Below are positions 16,758-36,555 of a DNA stretch of 64,000 nt, piece after piece. A program made the position numbers and the translations under genes. The DNA comes from Candidatus Magnetomicrobium cryptolimnococcus (GTDB taxonomy: Bacteria; Nitrospirota; Thermodesulfovibrionia; Thermodesulfovibrionales; Magnetobacteriaceae), in contig JAGYWI010000003.1 of assembly GCA_018606805.1 (NCBI GenBank), positions 62,001 through 126,000 on the forward strand, in the 5' to 3' direction. Each line of letters starts with the position of its first letter. Positions within the stretch are counted from its first letter, which is position 1. The notes below the pieces were generated by a model. That model worked only from the letters and a program-made list of their open reading frames with translations. It was not told the DNA's origin and did not search any database.

Positions 16758-17642
16758 TTAAATAATACCTGTTATTTTTTTAAATTCTGTTATATTTGAT
16801 GCCTTTTTTATGCTTTCTTGTATTTTTACTAACCTATTGAAATCTTGTATCTCAGTTATCTTATTTATAACCGAAAGGCTTGACTTACCAAATTTAATAT
16901 CTAAGGCACATTTTATCCCTATAATAAGTCCCTCATGGAGCCCCTCCTTGCGTCCTTCTTTATGTCCTGCCTTCTGTCCCTCTTTACGTCCTTCCTTACG
17001 TCCCTCCTGTCTACCAGTTAGATACACCTCATCTTTGCTTATGTCAATTATTACTGGCATTTTTCTTTCTACCTCCTGTGCTACTAATGGTGATATACCT
17101 CTAAGCCTTGATAGATTTCTTAGCGCTATCACATAATCCTTCTGCAACTTTTCGGGCAATACCATAAATCTCTCTCTTATTGCCTTCAATGTTGCAATCG
17201 GATTTTCCATCCGACATAATATAGATAATAACGCATCATCCGGATTATTACTGCTAAGTAGTTCTATGCAGTCTATCTCTCGAATGTCCTTAATCTTATA
17301 CGAATACGTTAACGTATTATGATATATCCCATTATTCATAGTTAAGGGAGCTTCCCCTACGTAGAGTAGAAGTTGATGGATTGGCACTCTGCGTACTTGA
17401 TATATCAAGCTATAGTAATCGTGCATTCTCCACTCCATGTCCTTTTCATTTGTCGCTTGCAATTCCATATGAAAGATACTCGTATCTGGTAACTCTATCA
17501 CCAAATCTGGCTCTCTACTTTGTACTACTGGAAACTTAGTGTCCAAAAATTTGCCTTCCTCAAATACAGTTAATAGCTTTAAAAACCGCTTTGGAATATT
17601 TTTAATTATTTTCTTTAGTGTTATATCATACAGTTGACTCAT
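16758..17642 (-). CDS. PD-(D/E)XK nuclease family protein, Rpn/transposase-like, copy A
   Basis: This 294-residue protein resembles the PD-(D/E)XK nuclease family transposases / Rpn recombination-promoting nucleases (COG5464-like). From the start MSQLYDITLKKII, the active-site pattern is visible: EPDLVIEL with Asp46 and FHMELQA with Glu60 and Gln62. A Gly-Arg-Lys-Glu repeat region (RQEGRKEGRKEGQKAG) near residue 210 is typical of the family. I chose the ATG at 17642; GGAGG lies 11 nt upstream, and a GTG at 17660 is an alternative. It is an almost identical tandem copy of the next gene. Such proteins cut DNA and promote RecA-independent recombination in E. coli; the role here is inferred from the family. 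Confidence 0.8.
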   Translation of the reverse strand: MSQLYDITLKKIIKNIPKRFLKLLTVFEEGKFLDTKFPVVQSREPDLVIELPDTSIFHMELQATNEKDMEWRMHDYYSLIYQVRRVPIHQLLLYVGEAPLTMNNGIYHNTLTYSYKIKDIREIDCIELLSSNNPDDALLSILCRMENPIATLKAIRERFMVLPEKLQKDYVIALRNLSRLRGISPLVAQEVERKMPVIIDISKDEVYLTGRQEGRKEGRKEGQKAGHKEGRKEGLHEGLIIGIKCALDIKFGKSSLSVINKITEIQDFNRLVKIQESIKKASNITEFKKITGII

Positions 17643-18576
17643 GCCATATCTATCCTCCACATTTATATACAGCTCTCACTTAATACCTGTTATTTTTTTA
17701 AATTCTGTTATATTTGATGCCTTTTTGATGCTTTCTTGTATTTTTACTAACCTATTGAAATCTTGTATCTCAGTTATCTTATTTATAACCGAAAGGCTTG
17801 ACTTACCAAATTTAATATCTAAGGCACATTTTATCCCTATAATAAGTCCCTCATGGAGCCCCTCCTTGCGTCCTTCTTTATGTCCTGCCTTCTGTCCCTC
17901 TTTACGTCCTTCCTTACGTCCCTCCTGTCTACCAGTTAGATACACCTCATCTTTGCTTATGTCAATTATTACTGGCATTTTTCTTTCTACCTCCTGTGCT
18001 ACTAATGGTGATATACCTCTAAGCCTTGATAGATTTCTTAGCGCTATCACATAATCCTTCTGCAACTTTTCGGGCAATACCATAAATCTCTCTCTTATTG
18101 CCTTCAATGTTGCAATCGGATTTTCCATCCGACATAATATAGATAATAACGCATCATCCGGATTATTACTGCTAAGTAGTTCTATGCAGTCTATCTCTCG
18201 AATGTCCTTAATCTTATACGAATACGTTAACGTATTATGATATATCCCATTATTCATAGTTAAGGGAGCTTCCCCTACGTAGAGTAGAAGTTGATGGATT
18301 GGCACTCTGCGTACTTGATATATCAAGCTATAGTAATCGTGCATTCTCCACTCCATGTCCTTTTCATTTGTCGCTTGCAATTCCATATGAAAGATACTCG
18401 TATCTGGTAACTCTATCACCAAATCTGGCTCTCTACTTTGTACTACTGGAAACTTAGTGTCCAAAAACTTTCCTTCCTCAAATCCAGTTAATAGCTTTAA
18501 AAATCGCTTTGGAATATTTTTAATTATTTTCTTTAGTGTTATATCATACAGTTGACTCATGCCATATCTATCCTCC
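16763..18576. repeat. Tandem direct duplication, unit about 896 bp, offset 918 bp
   Basis: 16763-17658 and 17681-18576 are about 99 % identical. Both begin TAATACCTGTTATTTTTTTA and end at CATATCTATCCTCC. The 22-bp linker between them is unique. The duplication is recent. Confidence 0.9.
17676..18560 (-). CDS. PD-(D/E)XK nuclease family protein, Rpn/transposase-like, copy B
   Basis: This copy has the same 294-residue layout as copy A: Asp46, Glu60-x-Gln62, and the GRKEG repeats. I count about five base differences from copy A over roughly 896 bp, most of them near the 5' end of the gene; the protein differs at Val25/Gly25 and the last residue (Ile/Lys). The sequence upstream of its start is unique, whereas copy A's start is followed by the duplication junction, so B probably keeps the original promoter. 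GGAGG precedes the ATG, and a longer frame (to 18602) begins MKDLFKIKRED. tilS lies downstream on the same strand... its stop is at 18686, so this gene sits just behind tilS and may be co-transcribed. Confidence 0.8.
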   Translation of the reverse strand: MSQLYDITLKKIIKNIPKRFLKLLTGFEEGKFLDTKFPVVQSREPDLVIELPDTSIFHMELQATNEKDMEWRMHDYYSLIYQVRRVPIHQLLLYVGEAPLTMNNGIYHNTLTYSYKIKDIREIDCIELLSSNNPDDALLSILCRMENPIATLKAIRERFMVLPEKLQKDYVIALRNLSRLRGISPLVAQEVERKMPVIIDISKDEVYLTGRQEGRKEGRKEGQKAGHKEGRKEGLHEGLIIGIKCALDIKFGKSSLSVINKITEIQDFNRLVKIQESIKKASNITEFKKITGIK

Positions 18577-18685
18577 CTCTTTATTTTAAACAAATCCTTC
18601 AATTTTTACCATAGCAAAATTATTTGTATAGAATACAACATTAATTTTGCTCAGGGCAAAAAGTAGTCTCTTGCCTTTTTCCACA

Positions 18686-33339: not shown

Positions 33340-33651
33340 CTATTGTTGTAAACCAACACTCTTCAACCAAGAGGTAAGTTGGTAGTCATTTAATTTCAAA
33401 TTAATATTAATAACTTCCCTTATACATTTAAATGCCTCTTCTTGTTTATCAAGTTCCAAAAAGAGCATTGCTAAATTTGCTAAAGTAACGCCTTCGCCTT
33501 TTTTATCGCCAATATCCTTCATGATGTTTAAACTTAGGAGAAGGTATTTCAATGCGTTGTCATAGTCGCCTCGTGCTTTATAAATCTGGCTAATATTATT
33601 AAGAGTAACGCCTTCGCCTTGTGTATCGCCAATATCCTTAATAGCCAGCAT
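33340..33651 (-). CDS. TPR C-terminal part of the CHAT/STAND protein, out of frame
   Basis: The 103 residues continue a tetratricopeptide array: LAIKDIGDTQGEGVTLNNIS, ARGDYDNALKYLLLSLNIMK and GDKKGEGVTLANLAMLFLEL are typical TPR units of the GDxxGEGxxLxNL class. The frame begins in the last 14 nt of the large upstream gene, whose own final TPR is cut short (LMFYNKAYAGY, then TAA). Shifting one base at about 33640-33650 would join both into one continuous array (YNKA followed by LAIKDIGD). Either a frameshift mutation split one gene, or this part is translated by reinitiation at ATG 33651. I favour a frameshift. Confidence 0.7.
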   Translation of the reverse strand: MLAIKDIGDTQGEGVTLNNISQIYKARGDYDNALKYLLLSLNIMKDIGDKKGEGVTLANLAMLFLELDKQEEAFKCIREVININLKLNDYQLTSWLKSVGLQQ

Positions 33652-36184
33652 AAGCCTTATTATAAAACATCAATGCTTCATCTATTTTCCCAAACAACTG
33701 TAAAACTAATCCTAACCTATTTAATATTCTATTATCAGTATAATCTCCAAGCTGACTATAAACTTCAAAGCAATAATAATACGCTTTTGCAAACATGGAA
33801 ACATCGTAGTAATAACGTGAAATCATATCACCAATCTCATCAATCATATCCTTAACATTAGTATCCCTAACCTTACAAAAATGTAAGAAAGCTTCTTCTA
33901 ATTCAGTTATCCCATATTCAATATTGTTAAATATATGGTAGTAATATGCACCTGCGCGTTTGTGCAAAAATGGCATTGCCTCTATTTTATCTTTACCGAT
34001 TAACTCTTTTATAATTGGTGTTGTATAGTAATACACTAAGTTCGTTAATCTATCTATAGATATTTCCACTAATGTCAGGTCGTTTAAATATAGCAAATTT
34101 TCTTCTAACACATCCTCGCTTGTGAAGTCATTATCAATTTTTTGTATAGATAAAGCCAAAATATTTACAGGGATTCTGTACTGGCTTAGTACATATAACA
34201 AAGCCCGCTGCTTATCATCAAGCATGCTGAGCAGTTCATCAAAGAGTAGGTTACTGCTTATCTTTACTTTTACATACTCTACCTCTTTTTCAAATTTCGC
34301 TATAAAACCTGGCAGTGTTCTTAAAAAAGATACTGATTTTGCATACTTTTTCTTAAATAGTTCATTAAAAAATTCTAATGCCCTGTAGTTGCCACCAAAT
34401 GCTCCATGCAAAAGCTGGACTATTTCAACAAATTCTTTGTACCCAAGCTCACTAATTTCGTCCTGCATCATGCTTGTACCTATATCCAGGTATTGGCATT
34501 TTTTCCAAAAATCATTAAACCCGACATGATTTAAATCACACGTTACAATATTCGGCAGCCCGCTTAAAGGATAACGACATGTAAGGACTAAATGAACCGG
34601 GCGTTCAGTGTAAAGGTAGTGGATAAGCTCAAATATATCTGTATACTTATCTTTAAACCTTCCGCCTGGCTCCACTTGAAATGTTTCAAGATTATCAAAA
34701 ACCAAAACCACTTGGTGATGGTTTGATAAAAGCTCACTGATAAGTAACTTAAACTTATCAATGCCCTTCTCCTTTAACGCTAACTCACTGTCAATACACC
34801 TTTTTCCCTTATCAAACAGAAAGTTTTTCAGTTCAGTTAAAAAATTATACAGAGATTTTTCTTTTTCACTAAAAAAGAATGGGTAAAATTCCTTATTTGT
34901 AGATACTATTAAACGCTGTACCATGTACTCAGCAAGGGAGCTTTTGCCAGCGCCTCCTTGTCCTTTAAGTAGCACCGGAAGTTTTTTTATGAACGACTCC
35001 ATGACTGTCTGTCTTTCACGTCTTCGACCAATGAATCTATAGTTTTCATCATGTTTAATTAACAGACGCTTTTGTTCCGTTACAAAACGATAGGACGTTT
35101 TATCATATTCGAGTTTTTCTGTAGCCTTTGCCCAGTTAACAATATCTTCCATATTACAAGCCATGTATAAATTGGGAATTACCCACTGAAACGGCTGGGC
35201 TGGAGCATTACTCTTTCTAAGTTCTTCACCTTCAAGTATCCGTATATAGTTAACTGCCGTTGTGAAGGATTGAGGGATATTTCTTTTTAATGATAATTCA
35301 CTGTAGAATTTTGCAGCAAAAGATGTGGCGTAGGTGTCAAGTATAGACATACCCATTGCAATAACCGCTGGTATATTGTGCTGTAACAGTTGGTTTGTAA
35401 CCCCAACCAAGCCCTTTTCAGTCTGTCCTTGTGCAGACTGACACGCTGAAAGCAACACAAGTGGCACTGTATGCTTCGGGTTGGTCTTTAACGCACGCGC
35501 AAAAGCATCGGCACTGACTAACTCCTTCTTTAAATTAAATTGGTCTTCTAATAACAAATAACCCTCGCCATCTTTGTATAAGCCATGTCCAGAAAAATGA
35601 ACCACATGATATTTGTTATCTTTTAATTTACTCTTAAGGGCATCCAGTGAACCTTCTGTTGTGTAGTCAATCTCTACCAGTCCAGACCACAATAATGGCT
35701 CAAAGGCTGATAATATTATATATTCCTCATCATCATAGGAAAGCTGCTTCTCCCATGGTAAATCATCGGGTGATGACAGCATTATCAAGATTTTTAAAGG
35801 AGGCGCATCATCCCATGTCTGTAAATCATCTGCCTCAATAATGTCCCCGCTTAAATATTTCACTATATTTAGAAATTCAATATTTGCAAGAGACATTTTA
35901 GAAACCGCATCGGTTGCCATGGACCACGGCAGGTTTAGTATTTCGTTATCGTTGTGAGTAAGGCGAATGACGTAATGCCTGCCGCGTTTATTTATGTCTT
36001 TTAAGACCTCAACTAACTGCTCGTTTTTATTAACGATAGTGGTCATCGCACCTTTCATAATGTCAAGTTTCTTAACATCAAGTGGAAGATGGTTTTCAAG
36101 GTCTTTTATGATCTTGCCATTTAAATCTTTTAAGACATTTACCTCAAATGGGGTTATTTGTAAGTCAATCTTTTCCCAAATCAT
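33638..36184 (-). CDS. CHAT caspase-like protease / STAND NTPase / TPR protein
   Basis: The 848-residue protein has an N-terminal CHAT (caspase-like) domain: the catalytic His200 lies in VVHFSGHG and Cys248 in LVLLSACQSA. A STAND-type P-loop NTPase follows, with the bait-like entry FIGRRRERQTVME, Walker A LKGQGGAGKSSLAE (408-415) and Walker B VVLVFDNLE. A helical region and the beginning of a TPR array close the chain. In bacteria such CHAT-NTPase-TPR proteins act as conflict or cell-suicide sensors in which an oligomerising STAND module activates the protease. Ligand and target are unknown. It overlaps a small zinc-binding gene by 20 nt, and its own C terminus continues out of frame. Confidence 0.85.
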   Translation of the reverse strand: MIWEKIDLQITPFEVNVLKDLNGKIIKDLENHLPLDVKKLDIMKGAMTTIVNKNEQLVEVLKDINKRGRHYVIRLTHNDNEILNLPWSMATDAVSKMSLANIEFLNIVKYLSGDIIEADDLQTWDDAPPLKILIMLSSPDDLPWEKQLSYDDEEYIILSAFEPLLWSGLVEIDYTTEGSLDALKSKLKDNKYHVVHFSGHGLYKDGEGYLLLEDQFNLKKELVSADAFARALKTNPKHTVPLVLLSACQSAQGQTEKGLVGVTNQLLQHNIPAVIAMGMSILDTYATSFAAKFYSELSLKRNIPQSFTTAVNYIRILEGEELRKSNAPAQPFQWVIPNLYMACNMEDIVNWAKATEKLEYDKTSYRFVTEQKRLLIKHDENYRFIGRRRERQTVMESFIKKLPVLLKGQGGAGKSSLAEYMVQRLIVSTNKEFYPFFFSEKEKSLYNFLTELKNFLFDKGKRCIDSELALKEKGIDKFKLLISELLSNHHQVVLVFDNLETFQVEPGGRFKDKYTDIFELIHYLYTERPVHLVLTCRYPLSGLPNIVTCDLNHVGFNDFWKKCQYLDIGTSMMQDEISELGYKEFVEIVQLLHGAFGGNYRALEFFNELFKKKYAKSVSFLRTLPGFIAKFEKEVEYVKVKISSNLLFDELLSMLDDKQRALLYVLSQYRIPVNILALSIQKIDNDFTSEDVLEENLLYLNDLTLVEISIDRLTNLVYYYTTPIIKELIGKDKIEAMPFLHKRAGAYYYHIFNNIEYGITELEEAFLHFCKVRDTNVKDMIDEIGDMISRYYYDVSMFAKAYYYCFEVYSQLGDYTDNRILNRLGLVLQLFGKIDEALMFYNKAYAGY

Positions 36185-36377
36185 TGAATTGTAACTCCTT
36201 ATAAACGCTTTGAAATTTCTTTATGATTGTCTTACTAAGGCAAAGCCTGCTTTTAACTATAAATAGAACCTTCTTTTCGCACTCCAAACAGTAAGCGTCT
36301 TTTTTTGAGTTAAAATCAGGAGTGTCATCAATAATACCAAATACTACTGGAAAGATATGTTTGTTTTCACATTGCAC
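36165..36377 (-). CDS. Small cysteine-rich (zinc-binding?) protein preceding the CHAT gene
   Basis: From a GTG start the product has 70 residues, with QCENKH at the N terminus and YCLECEKK near residue 30, enough for a small zinc site, followed by a basic helix. It overlaps the CHAT gene by 20 nt and is surely co-transcribed. The real N terminus may be longer: an ATG at 36405 with a strong GGGAGG 6 nt upstream starts MIPKKK, but in another frame. One additional A in the run of seven T/A bases (36391-36397) would join that start to this frame (KKVVYNVQCENKHIF). Function unknown; by position it may be a partner or regulator of the CHAT protein. Confidence 0.55.
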   Translation of the reverse strand: MQCENKHIFPVVFGIIDDTPDFNSKKDAYCLECEKKVLFIVKSRLCLSKTIIKKFQSVYKELQFNDLGKD

Positions 36378-36390
36378 GTTATATACAACC

Positions 36391-36397
36391 TTTTTTT
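36391..36397 (-). other. Homopolymer T7 (A7 on the coding strand) at a possible frameshift site
   Basis: Seven T residues on the plus strand lie between the strong ATG at 36405 and the small zinc protein. A change from seven to eight would restore one frame; candidate phase-variable site or sequencing error. Confidence 0.4.
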
Positions 36398-36555
36398 GGA
36401 ATCATTTCCCGCCTCCCATAAAAAACTATGTTTATTATTATAACAAAAGTATATAATTTTTCCTAATAATGTCCTTTTTGCGAAAGTATGTTATACTTAG
36501 CTAACGTGTCTGTATAACAGGCTGTAAACTTTGGCAGTTTAGGAGGATAATAACG

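Follow-up and report, generated by a model that had tools for sequence, protein, structure and literature searches.

Antiviral STAND proteins that have been characterized experimentally are usually tripartite, with C-terminal sensors, for example TPRs, that bind conserved phage proteins (PMC10907252). Peptidase domains, and repeat sensors on STAND NTPases, belong to the prokaryotic conflict systems described by Kaur et al. 2020 (PMC7159879), and caspase-family proteases are reported to have antiphage roles, with proteolytic activation of a partner from the same locus (PMC12799240). When a CHAT protease is joined to an NLR-like switch, the protein is a bacterial equivalent of the caspases and NLRs that bring about cell death. 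Natural substrates and partners have been identified for few such proteases, usually among the genes next door.

Domain organization and comparison with known systems

The window, by which we mean the whole 64,000-nucleotide stretch of DNA analyzed, belongs to a 3.59 Mb genome in 91 contigs. On its minus strand lies a large gene in two reading frames; the genes immediately flanking the locus encode a lipoyl synthase-like radical SAM protein and a DsbC-like thioredoxin. ORF1 (36184-33638, 848 aa) encodes a CHAT domain, a NACHT/STAND NTPase and the first part of a TPR array, while ORF2 (33340..33651, 103 aa) encodes the remaining TPRs, in 120-bp units, and a conserved C-terminal cap. Rfam matched nothing at the locus, and a comparison of relatives around DsbC-like neighbor genes revealed neither a conserved neighbor nor an empty site.

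The CHAT protease occupies ORF1 residues 1-350 (35135..36184, from Pfam and VIA-align). Pfam CHAT (PF12770) matches residues 81-334 with E=1e-23 (84.7 bits against a curated cut-off of 24), and the His/Cys dyad is present as His200 (codon 35587-35585) and Cys248 (codon 35443-35441), so that ORF1 qualifies as a CHAT peptidase by both score and dyad. The P-loop NTPase covers approximately residues 384-538 (34570..35035), as judged from Pfam, motifs and a structure match. Here the NACHT family (PF05729) scores E=7.6e-8 at 403-537 (32.8 bits against a cut-off of 26.7), with Walker A GQGGAGKS at residues 408-415 (34963-34940) and Walker B FDN at 496-498, which places ORF1 among the STAND/NACHT proteins. 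The catalytic pair and the Walker A motif had been put at exactly these residues in the first-pass annotation. Among homologues, GQGGxGKS and FDN are invariant, position 412 being the sole varying place. The end of ORF1 (33638..33960) consists of a helical pre-TPR segment and the first TPR, with helices at 741-837 and a partial TPR_12 match at 807-848; TPR_12 is detected again in ORF2 (E=7.6e-12), where the C-terminal cap also aligns with intact relatives.

An AlphaFold model of the large protein (pLDDT 64) was compared with known structures by VIA-align. Residues 1-350 match separase (Z ~18-20) and Craspase TPR-CHAT (Z ~17-20), residues 124-350 match SAVED-CHAT (Z 19.6), and residues 384-555 resemble Orc/Cdc6-type NTPases and the Avs3 NTPase (Z 11.6 over 155 residues for Avs3). 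Because the alignments to separase and TPR-CHAT span residues 1-350, the N-terminal 125 residues of the model are probably part of the two-lobed CHAT/separase fold. A search of solved structures by sequence gave none at a useful E-value.

The protein shares with Avs/bNACHT the order of effector, STAND NTPase and repeat sensor, together with an Avs3-like NTPase fold, but it is smaller, has a CHAT effector and carries very regular 120-bp TPR units. With PADLOC 2023, no full-length Avs/bNACHT model matched, the protein (P0001) having weak SAVED_CHAT, BovA and SP_VI matches only; no PADLOC defense-system model spans the whole of it, and the weak SAVED_CHAT match is confined to the protease part. 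Craspase TPR-CHAT (Csx29) and type III CRISPR SAVED-CHAT have the same CHAT fold with a His/Cys pair. In the window protein, however, the TPRs are C-terminal, and the trigger for the CHAT domain presumably comes from within the same protein, through the STAND and TPR parts, and not from gRAMP or a cyclic nucleotide. No Cas genes were found among the immediate neighbors of the CHAT gene, and the Pfam scan gave no SAVED domain. Csx30 is a partner encoded next to Craspase. Like the NTP-dependent conflict systems of Kaur et al. 2020 (PMC7159879), the locus is built from modules that include a peptidase, a STAND NTPase and repeats that form superstructures, but no vWA-MoxR or other ternary partner was recognized beside the window gene. 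The earlier impression of a conflict-sensor-like layout is supported.

Relatives of the large protein and the break in the TPR array

A search of 100 related genomes placed the close homologues of full length in one genus of the window's family (g3; genomes G002, G008, G011 and G014) at ~39-44% identity, with several homologues per genome, and a species-genome scan added one more, from the Bacteroidales MAG L024 (~38-39% identity). In a phylum sample of 395 genomes, CHAT-STAND proteins occurred solely in the window's family, and among 395 Bacteroidia genomes and 43 from the family of the L024 MAG, matches occurred in that MAG only. No relative was detected in the viral contigs searched with the CHAT-STAND profile, and the CHAT-TPR proteins found on plasmids were all distant and for the most part from cyanobacteria. 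The tree groups the g3 proteins in one clade (99/99), which excludes the window and L024 proteins without resolving their order.

The search for orthologues with an intact frame returned several single ORFs, not pairs of separate genes: L024 (1267 aa), L025 (1124 aa), L027 (1112 aa) and L028 (1039 aa) are uninterrupted and have the same domain order. CHAT, STAND and TPR parts had been proposed to form one protein, and since these four relatives are intact single ORFs, that was most likely the ancestral form, relative to which the window array is broken. The NLR-like tripartite chain is complete in the intact relatives, whereas the window's own array is divided between two frames. The TPR units of these relatives measure 120 bp and, in the two tested (L025 and L027), are up to 92% alike at the DNA level; L026 and L028 have short TPR arrays, as in the window. 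In the L028 CHAT gene, an in-frame insert of repeat-derived peptide (SSVIPSSTVIPAKAGIQ) is found before the TPR region, at about residues 745-788.

The break itself is at 33638..33651, a stretch of 14 bases shared by ORF1 and ORF2. ORF1 ends at a TAA stop (33640-33638), and ORF2 (33340-33651), shifted by one base, carries the array on. When hexamer coding was scored with the 31 other window ORFs as training set, the signal stayed in the ORF1 frame as far as ~33640 and then ran in the ORF2 frame to 33360, which agrees with the original placement of the break at about 33640-33650 and the continuation in another frame to 33340. The relatives are uninterrupted at the matching site, and in the window the break is neither in a homopolymer nor in a slippage-prone repeat. 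Programmed frameshifting was considered and rejected, inspection having revealed no supporting signal.

The small zinc-ribbon-like gene

Immediately in front of the CHAT gene, and overlapping its start by 20 bases, the minus strand has a conserved frame (36165..36392; KVVYNVQCENKHIFP...AYCLEC...) for a small zinc-ribbon-like protein, with relatives in L024 (P0005) and at L052:398-583. P0005 matches it at E=3e-5 in pairwise comparison, and a profile built from P0005 and the window protein finds a third member in G015 (E=3e-11). Of the two metal-binding pairs (CxxC or CxxxH) expected of a zinc ribbon, the second, a CxxC, is invariant in the three members, and the first half varies between C-x3-H and C-x2-C. 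The short N-terminal Y-x-V-x-C...CxxC pattern is like that of DUF1178/FmdB-type zinc ribbons, but the small protein is not a member by score (Pfam DUF1178, E=0.039, below the cut-off), is shorter and lies beside a CHAT-STAND-TPR gene. Its structure model, of low confidence (pLDDT 56), places four strands within residues 1-50, followed by a tail, also of low confidence, that is absent from the relatives; Foldseek with this model gave nothing usable. One further match in the phylum sample of 395 genomes, from G023, was rejected as a multihaem cytochrome-like protein.

The Cys-rich frame has no stop between 36401 and 36165, and its first start codon, GTG 36377, is without an evident ribosome-binding site. 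A better-looking start, ATG 36405, has a Shine-Dalgarno-like GGGAGG six bases before it (36412..36417) and is followed by seven A (36397-36391), the start region spanning 36391..36405; as first reported, it is in another frame, which stops after eight codons. The accompanying suggestion that one extra base in the run of seven would join the two does not hold: the offset is 28 bases (3n+1), and the third frame, reached by such an insertion, stops early. The relatives start just before a shared first strand (MEKKVKRVVYKVQC / MKKTVEKEYEVVC), and in the window the conserved frame includes the corresponding KVVYNVQC, upstream of GTG 36377. Because the relatives keep this strand, translation would naturally begin before the GTG, and the gene is then probably out of frame.

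The same small neighbor was sought beside the orthologues and found in L024, where it ends 26 bp upstream of the CHAT-STAND-TPR start, but not at the g3 (sister-genus) loci. The G015 copy, in the window's family, stands alone on a contig with no CHAT remnant. The pairing is therefore real but rare, known from two loci in two phyla; its recurrence in a Bacteroidales MAG makes chance unlikely, although the L024 contig could in principle be mis-binned. No match to the small protein was present in the viral contigs, plasmids or phages searched. Upstream of the L024 pair is a type III restriction enzyme-like fragment (PADLOC, 1.3e-39). Directly downstream of the L024 CHAT-STAND-TPR gene, L024:9817-10227 encodes a small protein that is predicted to lie in the membrane and weakly resembles SLATT/PycTM, a possible membrane effector.

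The zinc-ribbon-like partner is a new part, not known to have been described before with a CHAT-STAND-TPR protein, which is itself of a known kind; among the papers searched, none joins a CHAT domain, a STAND NTPase and a zinc ribbon. A bolder reading, which we regard as doubtful, is that the pair constitutes an undescribed two-gene bacterial "inflammasome", in which the CHAT-STAND-TPR protein cleaves, or is restrained by, a dedicated zinc-ribbon protein and which has been transferred across phyla. As a small, conserved and co-encoded protein, the zinc-ribbon-like product is a candidate partner that is directly testable.

Proposed mechanism

We lean towards reading the locus as encoding a CHAT-STAND-TPR sensor of NLR-like type, probably directed against phages and optionally accompanied by the zinc-ribbon-like protein, which is in recent decay in the window genome. 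By analogy with the families named above, it would be a two-gene NLR-like conflict module in which the C-terminal TPR array senses a ligand, probably from a phage or another invader. Ligand binding would cause the NACHT-type STAND switch to oligomerize, such that CHAT protomers are brought together, and the activated CHAT domains would go on to cut a protein of the host or a partner, with growth arrest or cell death as the result. The zinc-ribbon-like protein, as an optional partner, would most likely be a substrate of the protease, an inhibitor or an adaptor, by analogy with caspase-family proteases and the partner in the same locus (PMC12799240). Because each of the two genes is shifted out of frame by one base, the window copy may have been recently inactivated, or may yield a CHAT-STAND protein minus most of its sensor.

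Origin of the frame breaks

The two breaks, single-base offsets in the same direction, occur within 3.07 kb, and decay, phase variation and sequence error had all been put forward to explain them. Neither gene has further stops beyond its one offset, and any decay would therefore be very recent. A local sequence or assembly error, with the frames intact in the organism and the module functional, would account for two single-base offsets with open and conserved frames downstream, one of them at a run of seven A. However, no break was seen in the 31 other window ORFs (40.9 kb), although homopolymers of at least seven bases occur in them 41 times, which makes a general assembly error unlikely. 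The TPR break is also outside any homopolymer, and the neighboring genes have full-length domains; even among the window ORFs that looked suspicious, most of those checked had full-length Pfam domains. On this evidence we consider a local error unlikely, though such an error, or a mixed population, might still lie behind the offsets.

Another potential explanation is that the genes are working parts in their present form, with ORF2 translated from ATG 33651 by coupling to ORF1 termination, and with GTG 36377 as the start of the small protein. The 14-base overlap is typical of coupled genes, AAGG stands just before ATG 33651, the ORF2 frame is clean, and two near-identical MAG copies of a homologue (L029/L030) have one common split with a 25-base overlap. 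Against this, the TPR array is one chain in the intact full-length relatives, and the GTG start would lose the first strand (KVVYNV) kept in relatives, in addition to having no evident ribosome-binding site. Such a split arrangement is in our view quite improbable.

Phase variation is found in some conflict genes that are costly to their host, and the run of seven A adjoins the start of the small gene; slippage could thus switch the module on and off within the population. Yet a run of this length is ordinary here, as the 41 runs in other, unbroken ORFs demonstrate, and the TPR break is not in a slippage-prone repeat. Phase variation by slippage is thus unsupported, and very improbable. The frame breaks most likely mark a recently decaying copy, and of the three original explanations it is decay that gains from broken homologues elsewhere, while general error and phase variation lose ground.

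Broken copies seem to be common in the CHAT-STAND-TPR family. For example, L026 has a TAG stop near codon 32, L029/L030 have a frame break before the TPRs (these two MAGs are 99.7% identical and not independent), and L031 is broken inside CHAT. The breaks are at differing places, and the family therefore seems to turn over fast, an added case of rapid module turnover among close relatives. The genome of the window itself has a tandem-duplicated distant CHAT-NTPase(-TPR) gene (L038, G000:C48, 89-2113 and 4550-7675), with two other genes (418 and 299 aa) between the copies. Over 1880 bases the two copies share 99.2% identity, but while one is intact, the other ends before its TPRs.

In L027:6586-9924, which has a metallophosphoesterase gene 37 bases upstream, Ala replaces the catalytic Cys (LSSANTAQ); judging from the sequence, this homologue is possibly a protease-dead variant with another effector. 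A low-complexity tandem repeat (SVTPSLSNTQSS) is found at the end of the broken L031 homologue (L031:1-500). Elsewhere in the window, at 16758-18602, two ORFs in tandem start almost identically (EDRYGMSQLYDITLKKIIKNIPKRFLKLL...), which may reflect a recent duplication.
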